Of a stretch of DNA of 64,000 nt, positions 1-1,616 are shown piece by piece. The DNA comes from Arenibacter arenosicollis (lineage in GTDB: Bacteria; Bacteroidota; Bacteroidia; Flavobacteriales; Flavobacteriaceae): NCBI RefSeq assembly GCF_014397245.1, contig NZ_JACLHY010000019.1, positions 1-64,000 of the forward strand. The letters run 5' to 3'. A model generated the notes under the pieces. That model did not search any database. It was not told the DNA's origin and saw only the letters and a program-made list of their open reading frames with translations. Numbering within the stretch: position 1 is the stretch's first letter; every line of letters starts with the position of its first letter. The position numbers were made by a program, and so were the translations under genes.

Positions 1-666
1 TTCCGACTTTTGTCCCATAAAAAGGTCCAAAAGCCACCTTCCCTTGTCAAGGGAAGGAGCAAATGTTATTGCTATATTTAGGAAATACTTGAGAATTATA
101 GCAATGAAAAAAGAATAAAGGGTTCCTCCCCCTAGAAGGGGAAGGTGTTCTGCTTCACCTCAAGTGAAGTGGAACGGAAGGAGTGATTAACGGAGGGTCA
201 ATTGTTGTTCAGAGCTGGATCCCTTCCGACTTTTGTCCCATAAAAAGGTCCAAAAGCCACCTTCCCTTGTCAAGGGAAGGAGCAAATGTTATTGCTATAT
301 TTAGGAAATACTTGAGAATTATAGCAATGAAAAAAGAATAAAGGGTTCCTTCCCCTATTAGGGGAAGGTGTTCTGCTTCACCTCAAGTGAAGTGGAACGG
401 AAGGGGCGATTAACGGAGGGTCAATTGTTGTACAGAGCTGGATCCCTTCCGACTTTTGTCCCATAAAAAGGTCCAAAAGCCACCTTCCCTTGTCAAGGGA
501 AGGAGCAAATGATATTGCTATATTTAGGAAATACATGAGAATTATAGCAATGAAAAAAGAATAGAGGGTTCCTTCCCCTAGAAGGGGAAGGTGTTCTGCT
601 TCACCTCAAGTGTATTGGGACGGAAGGGGTGATTAACGGAGGGTCAATTGTGGTTCAGAGCTGAAT

Positions 667-1186
667 CCCTTCCGACTTTTGTCCCAGAGAAAGGTCCAAA
701 AGTCACCTTCCCTTGTCAAGGGAAGGAGCACAATGATTATTATTTTTGAGAGGGATATGAAGCCTAAAAAGATACATAACAGACCTGAAACCAAAACAAA
801 TAGAATTCAGCTTCGAAAAAACCTGACTTCAGCAGAAGCCTTTCTTTGGAACGAATTGAAGGGAAAGAAATTGAATGGCAGGAAATTTAGGAGACAACAT
901 GTTATAGGTATTTATATTATGGACTTTTATTGCTCTGAGGAGAATTTGATAATAGAATTGGATGGAGAGGTTCATAATCATGCAATCGTAGGCGAAAATG
1001 ACGACAAAAGAACTGCATATTTGAATAGGAATGGATACAAGGTTATCCGTTTTGAAAATAAAATGGTTTTTGAAAATTTGCTCAGCGTTTTACAGGAAAT
1101 AAGGGATAATTTTAATGATAAAAAAGAATAAAAAGCTCCTTCCCCTAGAAGGGGAAGGTGTTCTGCTTCACCTGAAGTGAAGTGGA
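667..1186 (+). mobile_element. Expanded repeat unit carrying a DUF559 nuclease gene (candidate REP-like or MITE-parent element)
   Basis: This unit has the same ends as its neighbours (CCCTTCCG at 667-674; GGAACGGAAGGGG near 1174-1186) and the same two palindromes (706-726 and 1138-1158). The DNA between the palindromes is a complete DUF559 gene instead of the 65-bp filler. The filler in the short units resembles the edges of this gene: both begin AGCA(c)AATG followed by TTATT-rich DNA, and both end AATG(at)AAAAAAGAATAAA before the second palindrome. The short units can therefore be read as internal deletion copies of this one. The inverse, gene insertion into a short unit, is possible but explains the edge similarity less well. 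No target-site duplication could be defined. Confidence 0.55.
757..1131 (+). CDS. DUF559 domain endonuclease-like protein
   Basis: The 124-residue product matches the DUF559 family, predicted small nucleases of the Vsr/PD-(D/E)XK fold. Visible hallmarks are the N-terminal segment LRKNLTSAEAFLWNELKGKK, then KFRRQHVIGIYIMDFYC with the conserved Asp, and LIIELDGEVHNH with the Glu-x-Asp-Gly pair, followed by the C-terminal strand GYKVIRFEN. The frame is open from 679, but residues before 757 come from the repeat itself. ATG 733 is an alternative start; 757 fits the usual family N-terminus. The gene is bracketed by the two repeat palindromes and its stop lies 6 bp before the second one. Cellular role is unknown; the context suggests a link to spread or maintenance of the surrounding repeats, by analogy with RAYT transposases and REP palindromes. 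Confidence 0.85.
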   Translation: MKPKKIHNRPETKTNRIQLRKNLTSAEAFLWNELKGKKLNGRKFRRQHVIGIYIMDFYCSEENLIIELDGEVHNHAIVGENDDKRTAYLNRNGYKVIRFENKMVFENLLSVLQEIRDNFNDKKE

Positions 1187-1379
1187 ACGGAAGGGGTGAT
1201 TAACGGAGGGTCAATTGTTGTTCAGAGCTGGATCCCTTTCGACTTTCGTCCCTGAAAAAGGTCCAAAAGCCACCTTCCCTTGACAAGGGAAGGTGCTAAT
1301 GATATTGCTATATTTAGGAAATACATGAGAATTATAGCAATGAAAAAAGAATAGAGGGTTCCTTCCCCTAGAAGGGGAA

Positions 1380-1415
1380 GGTGGACCAATCCACGGCTGA
1401 GTGGATTGGGACGGA
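1380..1415. repeat. Variant hairpin in the fifth repeat unit
   Basis: In most units this position reads CTTCAC-CTCAA-GTGAAG. Here it is replaced by a different sequence that still forms a stem (CCAATCCAC, loop GGCTGA, GTGGATTGG). The change affects both arms together, so the structure is kept while the bases differ. It lies between the second palindrome and the right end of the unit. Confidence 0.7.
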
Positions 1416-1616
1416 AGGGGTGATTAACGGAGGGTCAATTGGTGTTCAGAGCTGGATCCCTTCCGACTTTTGTCCCATAAAAAGGTCCAAAAGCCACCTT
1501 CCCTTGTCAAGGGAAGGAGCAAAGTGGTTGATATATTGGGGGAATAAGGGATGATGCACTGAGCACAGATTTTAATTGTTATATTGTGGTTTAATACAAG
1601 TTATTCGGGAAGTTAT

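Follow-up and report, generated by a model that had tools for sequence, protein, structure and literature searches.

A DUF559 nuclease gene between triplex-type hairpin repeats: a candidate selfish DNA element in Arenibacter and other bacteria

Introduction

The palindromic elements of Rickettsia are inserted in frame in protein-coding genes; they are not known to carry a gene inside or to occur outside one bacterial group. In the RAYT-REP/REPIN system (PMC3733652), palindromes with a GTAG (or CGTC) tag stand on either side of a small gene for a nuclease, a tyrosine transposase; intragenic units are known and non-autonomous copies occur. A further repeat family, described under the names BoxC, PIT element and TM repeat, is composed of a hairpin and a third tract mirroring one of its arms, and is arranged in inverted pairs (PMC4666352). 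In E. coli, BoxC repeats have been on record since the 1990s; strain K-12 has 23 copies, and more than 260 genomes contain representatives. According to the same report, no mobility function had been found for them, and BoxC/TM loci are rearranged (PMC4666352). The terms ‘DUF559’, ‘endonuclease’ and ‘ycjD’ are absent from its text.

The locus described here and its relatives share with RAYT-REP the tagged palindromes around a small nuclease gene, the intragenic units and the non-autonomous copies, yet the nuclease is of the PD-(D/E)XK type and the tail is often GGTGAGG. With BoxC, PIT and TM repeats they have in common a pyrimidine/purine hairpin with mirror tract, many copies per genome, occurrence in many genomes and inverted pairs; those repeats were described without a mobility gene, whereas here two of them enclose a nuclease gene, and copies are found inserted in frame. 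Like the Rickettsia elements they are palindromic and in frame, but they contain a gene and occur in several phyla. The transposase of insertion sequences and MITEs was not found in the unit under study.

Results

A palindromic array with one gene-bearing unit

The window analysed here, i.e., a stretch of 64,000 nucleotides from Arenibacter arenosicollis (contig NZ_JACLHY010000019.1, here C11), opens with a palindromic array of 223-bp repeat units, one of which is enlarged to 567 bp; all features listed below lie on the + strand. The window start is the end of contig C11 and falls inside the array, and the number of units seen is a minimum. An incomplete short unit at the contig start (1..220; 95% identity to the unit at 444-666) is followed by two short units of 223 bp (221..443 and 444..666), the 567-bp long unit (667..1233), whose ends are those of the short units, a short unit of 224 bp (1234..1457; 91% identity to 444-666) and a partial unit (1458..1546), consisting of a left end and then a filler unlike the others, of which positions 1540-1555 resemble a region near the DUF559 gene 3' end at 14 of 16 nt. 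A 284-nt stretch covering one unit occurs five times with 65-98% identity (ungapped), and TRF reports for positions 1-741 a period of 223, 3.3 copies and 95% matches. In the whole genome the 223-bp unit yields eight matches, all of them on contig C11 and in this array. The break of the contig inside the array (window 1-220) suggests that such arrays may interrupt assemblies and be undercounted.

The long unit begins with an outer pyrimidine tract, CCCTTCC (667..673), mirroring the hairpin arm CCTTCCC, and continues with the left hairpin CACCTTCCCTTGTCAAGGGAAGG (704..726), a DUF559 PD-(D/E)XK nuclease gene of 132 codons plus stop (733..1131), the right hairpin CCTTCCCCTAGAAGGGGAAGG (1138..1158) and an outer purine tract, GGAAGGGG (1189..1196), which mirrors the arm GGGGAAGG. 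Short unit 444-666 has the same components, namely a third tract CCCTTCC (444-450; mirror p 0.005 against flank shuffles), left and right hairpins (483-503 and 573-593) with a deletion filler between them, and the third tract GGAAGGGG (622-629; mirror p 0.003 against flank shuffles). On the right, the mirror tract of the window unit lies 28 nt from its hairpin, a wider spacing than the loops of 1-6 nt used in PMC4666352.

The original prediction, made from the window alone, had placed a DUF559 gene within one unit of a palindromic array, and this is borne out by the open reading frame at 733-1131 in unit 667-1233 and its match to PF04480; the further statement that the gene exactly fills the space between the palindromes holds with a margin of no more than 6 nt at either end. 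The fillers of the short units had been read as both edges of the gene with the middle lost, which holds in outline. When seven fillers from five genomes were each compared with two DUF559 genes (the G005 and G014 fillers being the final 90 nt of a longer excised segment and including part of the left hairpin), eight of 14 comparisons gave p < 0.05 in a shuffle test and every filler had at least one p <= 0.025. Most fillers match the 3' end, for instance those of G004 and G005, for which none of 2000 shuffles was as good, and the G016 filler matches the 5' edge (p 0.002). As to the proposal that the long unit is a parent and the short ones its non-autonomous deletion copies, a gene-bearing form beside forms with the look of internal deletions agrees with it, but the units are found in one array at one site and not as dispersed copies.

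No transposase was detected in the window unit, DUF559 being the sole family found in Pfam (MTES_1575 and ART appeared below cut-off). Membership of the RAYT family was rejected on the lack of a Pfam-detectable tyrosine (Y1) transposase in the unit; the comparison with RAYT/REP drawn in the prediction is apt in the sense of ‘works like’, with a nuclease in place of the Y1 transposase.

The nuclease

The window protein matches PF04480 with an E-value of 6.8e-33 and a score of 113 bits (cut-off 20.6). Sixteen residues, numbered after the first sequence of the alignment, are invariant in 34 proteins, i.e., R26, T30, E33, W37, F50, R51, R52, Q53, D62, L70, E73, G76, H79, D88, R91 and R104. Profile searches returned the DUF559 structure 3hrl from N. 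gonorrhoeae (6.6e-33) and 3r3p, the homing endonuclease I-Bth0305I (E 6e-6), whose type we take to be that of the EDxHD homing endonucleases. An AlphaFold model of a DUF559 protein (pLDDT 82.9) retrieved by Foldseek, in this order, 3hrl, 3r3p (E 1e-4) and PvuRts1I, with Vsr (1vsr, E 0.02) at rank 7. The nuclease fold is thus homologous to that of the EDxHD enzymes, and spread at a fixed site is suggested in leuS (see below); the present elements differ in having no apparent intron or intein, in their triplex-type repeat ends and in their many unrelated target genes.

Across three orthologue pairs the window gene has a dN/dS of 0.056-0.099 at a dS of about 1 or more, near saturation, and on these ratios is under purifying selection. 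According to PMC12907096, the Caulobacter DUF559 protein VsrA is required for the SOS/DNA-damage response of cells lacking cytosine methylase, a role read there as mismatch repair; by analogy with this requirement, DUF559 members may be active as nucleases.

One orthologous site across the genus

The gene next to the array (an M20 peptidase as judged by eye) has a match in all 18 genomes of the genus. The gap upstream of it, which follows an ApbE-like gene (by eye), was inspected by eye in these 18 genomes, two of which (G013 and G015) were read in part. Units, unit ends or traces are present in 16 of them and the gap is clean in two. A DUF559 gene together with short units is found in six (G000, G005, G009, G013, G014 and G015; in G009 the gene was placed by coordinates, and in G015 it contains a stop). 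Five genomes (G002, G004, G006, G016 and G017) have no gene but show short units or unit ends, G011 has a remnant, four (G001, G003, G007 and G010) show faint traces, and G008 and G012 are empty. The units being confined to one orthologous site, they have multiplied locally in this genus, growing and shrinking in place with no dispersal.

The window genome encodes two other full-length DUF559 genes, which also lie among palindrome-bearing repeats of other sequence. Those around one (L002) are interspersed, with no array called by TRF, and those around the other (L003) form a tandem array of three 170-bp copies. A fourth DUF559 match (L004), encoding a protein of Vsr size, is not among such repeats.

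Hairpins flank DUF559 genes in many bacteria

Relatives were collected by scanning genome contigs with a DUF559 alignment, and the best 80 of 580, together with as much as 10 kb of flanking sequence in either direction, form the named set; these loci are not independent, eight being hisF fusions of Pedobacter-type genomes. Hairpins with a pyrimidine arm followed by a purine arm (CCTCTCC..GGAGAGG type, designated YR) occur at a density of 3.16 per kb within 100 bp of the gene, 1.53 per kb at 100-200 bp and 0.01-0.03 per kb beyond 2 kb, and hairpins of the reversed (RY) type are almost lacking near DUF559 genes. With arms of at least 6 bp and a distance of up to 300 bp, YR hairpins are present on both sides in 35 and on any side in 51 of the 71 named loci with enough flank, compared with 0 and 21 of 1126 control positions on the same contigs. 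A 5-bp-arm criterion brought no gain (45/71 versus 51/71) because four C of five were required, and in several of 17 loci that had fallen below an earlier threshold shorter-armed hairpins were read by eye.

A second set, drawn from unnamed relatives and phylum members (59 loci less five that were short and four that were weak, i.e., 50; one locus, L045 = L170, is common to both sets), has YR hairpins on both sides in 32 and on any side in 44. Flanking hairpins were found at none of five weak partial DUF559 matches, four of which are of Vsr size. Among the Gammaproteobacteria, the class to which G257 (source of the Methylococcus locus L187) belongs, a DUF559 match is present in 24 of 94 genomes; hairpins stand on both sides at 18 and on any side at 20 of 22 strong-domain loci, as against 0 and one of eight weak-domain loci. 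The palindrome-nuclease-palindrome layout foreseen for the window is consequently widespread and no local accident, as judged from the distance profile, the 35/71 versus 0/1126 contrast and the 18/22 gammaproteobacterial loci. The prediction would have been undermined by DUF559 genes without such flanks, and these form a minority, the tested hairpin type being absent within 300 bp at 20 of 71 named and six of 50 other loci, and the majority being flanked. The likeness of the repeats to the known BoxC/PIT family and the in-frame insertion into essential genes, both set out below, formed no part of the prediction.

When phage (50,697) and plasmid (72,556) records were searched with the window protein by tblastn, DUF559 turned up in three and 39 of them, respectively, some of the plasmid records being chromosome-sized. 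Among ten plasmid-collection loci that were read, several have motifs on both sides (from cyanobacteria, Sinorhizobium, Deinococcus, Azospirillum and Sphingomonas), with inverted repeats around DUF559 of 94 nt in Sinorhizobium (L122, S. meliloti CP090106.1) and 53 nt in Deinococcus. The E. coli and Photobacterium copies of this collection have the motif downstream only, and a P. aeruginosa plasmid gene (L130), beside which no palindromes are visible, is a counter-example. The end repeats of L122 taken alone match other rhizobial replicons in 19 of the 30 rows listed (152 records). On a Sphingomonas plasmid (L129), a DUF559 gene with inverted repeats lies between the genes for NAD(P) transhydrogenase subunits, splitting the operon.

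The ends resemble BoxC-type triplex repeats

For 106 strong hairpins from 48 of the 80 named loci, a mirror of the adjacent arm was sought within 22 nt on either side. Such a mirror, matching in at least 7 of 8 places, stands beside 83 of them, compared with 4.8% per side in shuffled flanks. In 54 of the 106 the hairpin has a tail, being preceded by CCTCACC or followed by GGTGAGG, and these tag-plus-hairpin ends form inverted pairs around the gene, with the tails pointing either out or in. The DUF559-flanking repeats therefore look like the intrastrand-triplex repeats BoxC, PIT and TM, sharing with them the pyrimidine/purine-arm hairpin and the third tract that mirrors an arm and would be triplex-capable. 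In E. coli K-12 a BoxC-like motif, with the TTA second loop of type A, follows the DUF559 gene ycjD; this case belongs to the same DUF559 family, and differs in that the motif stands on one side only.

Copies of such motifs are numerous in genomes that carry the gene. In 19 of these, CCTCTCC-N0-8-GGAGAGG occurs 852 times and the reversed control twice; the motif was not found in two of the 19, nor in three plasmid records. Across the phylum, the 84 genomes with a strong DUF559 match contain 443 copies of CCCCCT..AGGGGG and 49 of the control, compared with 138 and 105 in the other 114 genomes (Mann-Whitney p 4e-5 for enrichment over the 198 genomes, a value that ignores kinship and includes the flanks of the genes themselves). 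Many motifs are also present in G114 and G096, which have no DUF559 match, and in G047, with a weak match only. At L187:7181-11869, a methylase-like open reading frame combines a DUF559 insert with a long in-frame tandem series of one end repeat (ESPSPAGGGGEN), present in many copies.

In-frame insertion in host proteins

In 30 of the 80 named loci the DUF559 domain lies in an open reading frame of more than 260 aa; among them is L138, whose sequence contains masked letters and for which no host is evident. Hosts were named by family scans of 16 of the 30, in two batches of eight. The first batch returned LeuRS, MetH, AroC, HsdM and HisF, and the second HrpA, ValRS, LeuRS and, weakly, a PglX-like methylase, with four frames showing DUF559 only; RecG, HsdR and others were recognised by eye as further hosts in the second (unnamed) set. 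AroC, ValRS, HrpA and the LeuRS of L174 are split into two matching stretches around the insert, and in LeuRS, MetH and HsdM the DUF559 domain is situated between host domains or behind them. For ValRS, the model matched ahead of the insert stops at 591, and a related model takes over at 590 behind it; the HrpA match resumes at 231 after the insert. Little or no host sequence thus seems to have been lost, an estimate qualified by the differing ValRS models and by the first stretches of HrpA and AroC, which lie outside the printed matches.

The element ends are translated within the host, for example as SPSLGGGRGEV. No intein domain was found among the Pfam matches up to E 1e-8 in eight hosts, and the reading frame is open. 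In L174 (L174:823-2175) the frame stops 20 codons past the DUF559 domain, and the insert seems either to break the essential host gene leuS or to reflect an assembly end effect. At the hisA-hisF junction of Pedobacter type, hisF forms part of a 386-417 aa open reading frame behind the nuclease in eight of 12 genomes searched, the eight having been preselected (L216, L220-L224, L226 and L227). In the printed junctions hisF starts at codon 2 and its old ATG is gone, and with its own start seemingly lost HisF would be made as a fusion or started elsewhere. No base-exact empty site was found at this junction, the four unfilled gaps among the 12 genomes being too different.

Occupied, gene-less and empty forms of the leuS site

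The leuS site was read in 27 genomes, gene-less forms being called by eye. A full element is present in three members of the genus (G013, G006 and G011), a decayed full element in a member of another genus (G019) and a gene-less repeat in G005, G003 and G030. The site is empty in seven members of the genus (G000, G002, G004, G009, G014, G016 and G017), and the remaining genomes have no clear element; the phylum set contributes two more full copies, in G091 and G141. In a tree of the leuS N-part, G013 (full) is sister to G014 (empty) with support of 100/99, and the full copies require at least two changes. In G019 (L031 / L110) the in-frame DUF559 remnant has lost several conserved nuclease residues, and its frame is open.

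Between G013 and G006, dS is 0.07 in each of two windows within the insert, compared with 0.36-1.90 in ten other leuS windows. The two sequences diverge up to the left end of the element, where high similarity starts, and beyond its right end they agree, save for one difference, over some 50 nt before diverging again. GTC stands on both sides of the element, and its right flank is unlike that of the empty alleles. On this comparison the leuS element, perhaps along with a little adjoining sequence, is read as having recently passed between lineages, an exchange which could be ordinary short-tract recombination without help from the nuclease. No such dS contrast was seen for the pairs G013-G011 and G006-G011. 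A comparable picture is seen at a further site (C1), occupied at the same position in G013 and G017, where the DUF559 gene has a dS of 0.034, compared with 0.653 for leuS, and identities are 97-100% in the gene and 87-95% in the flanks.

For the Sinorhizobium element L122, no record lacking only the element was recognised among 30 listed of 152 records. In E. coli, 3365 of 5426 genomes have a ycjD match. This gene was considered as a strain-level empty site and rejected, three strains without it carrying an RND efflux region between sapF and fabI, which PMC12817139 names eefABC and assigns to strains without ycjD. At this sapF-fabI position (L211, L213-L215), ycjD and its BoxC-like repeat stand where other strains carry eefABC.

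Discussion

Comparison places this architecture across phyla and at many unrelated sites, including in-frame positions in essential genes, and gene-less forms occur at the same sites as full elements. We consider it probable, on these comparative grounds, that the long unit is one copy of a selfish element of very small size, consisting of a DUF559 nuclease gene between triplex-capable inverted hairpins and propagating by homing-like copying. Each end, a hairpin usually accompanied by an extra mirror tract on one side, could fold into an intrastrand triplex. The nuclease, which we infer to drive movement of the element, would cut the target, or the hairpin or triplex exposed at a replication fork, whereupon double-strand-break repair would copy the element in and co-convert short flanks; rare off-target events may give rise to new sites. 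Since both ends can be read without stops, no splicing is needed for the element to reside in a protein. Solo repeats of the BoxC, PIT or TM type would be what remains after internal deletion, and recombination between tandem copies would produce arrays such as that of the window. The case as a whole is comparative.

The same ends could instead serve a RAYT-like transposition, in which the nuclease recognises a single-stranded tag and hairpin at replication forks and itself moves elements and solo repeats. Such action fits the tag-hairpin ends in inverted pairs around the gene, half of whose hairpins or so bear the recurring CCTCACC/GGTGAGG tail (54/106), and the many dispersed solo copies of the motif per genome. 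PD-(D/E)XK nucleases have, to our knowledge, no joining chemistry of their own, which counts against this route, and in the leuS case the element spread at one and the same site, where its right flank is changed; we regard a purely RAYT-like mechanism as doubtful. The homing-like route, which agrees with the tract seen in leuS and with the relatedness of the nuclease to I-Bth0305I, is rated somewhat higher, and a mixture of both is possible. For the window array taken alone, it might be supposed that slippage expanded a satellite-like tandem repeat in which the nuclease now plays no part, given that the units lie at one site and vary from none to several copies between species. This would explain the copy number but neither the origin of the units nor the gene, which is under purifying selection, though the G015 copy has a stop; we hold it to be unlikely, and a simple tandem satellite is retained for the copy number of this array only.

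Two further explanations were considered. If BoxC-type repeats were hotspots of insertion and rearrangement, DUF559 genes could be passive, hitch-hiking cargo, in keeping with the existence of repeats without gene and with the rearranged BoxC/TM loci reported in PMC4666352. The same small gene is found at the same position between inverted ends in several phyla, with a tight distance profile (scanned at DUF559 loci only), which makes the cargo explanation very unlikely. The least likely is that a Vsr-type mismatch-repair gene, useful to the host, resides in repeat-rich places, repeats gathering where its product nicks or stalls. The Vsr-like fold (1vsr, Foldseek E 0.02) and the need for VsrA in the SOS response of Caulobacter without cytosine methylase (PMC12907096) speak for it, but the weak matches, four of five of Vsr size, have no such flanks (0/5), and the in-frame copies in LeuRS, ValRS, AroC and HrpA and the gene-less forms at the same sites would be left unexplained.

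The nuclease family, the repeats and in-frame palindromic inserts are each already known. Among the literature matches listed, from a search whose scope excluded bioRxiv and most subscription journals, none links DUF559 to palindromic, BoxC or triplex repeats. The composite lacks a defining feature of RAYT-REP, of IS/MITE and of intron- or intein-borne homing elements; if the homing-like reading is right, a homing specialist might see in it a new variant of the last. The package looks, from sequence comparison, like an unrecognised selfish DNA element and a possible source of a long-known bacterial repeat family. On balance, and with somewhat less confidence than for the element itself, we favour the view that DUF559 nucleases act as dedicated mobilisers of BoxC/PIT/TM repeats throughout bacteria, with a nuclease and triplex ends, in-frame invasion of essential genes without splicing, and solo repeats as their footprint. 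As the gene lies between two BoxC/PIT repeats in several phyla, the origin of the repeats is directly testable, e.g., at ycjD of E. coli K-12. Nuclease elements in frame in LeuRS, ValRS, MetH, AroC, HrpA and HisF, where the matches inspected revealed no intein domain, would, if true, represent a further lifestyle of selfish DNA inside essential genes, and would account for the odd ‘DUF559 fusions’ in annotation.

An additional arrangement was noted at L203:8219-12865, where a PglX-like gene contains, besides a DUF559 element, an extra in-frame pair of end repeats with no gene between them.
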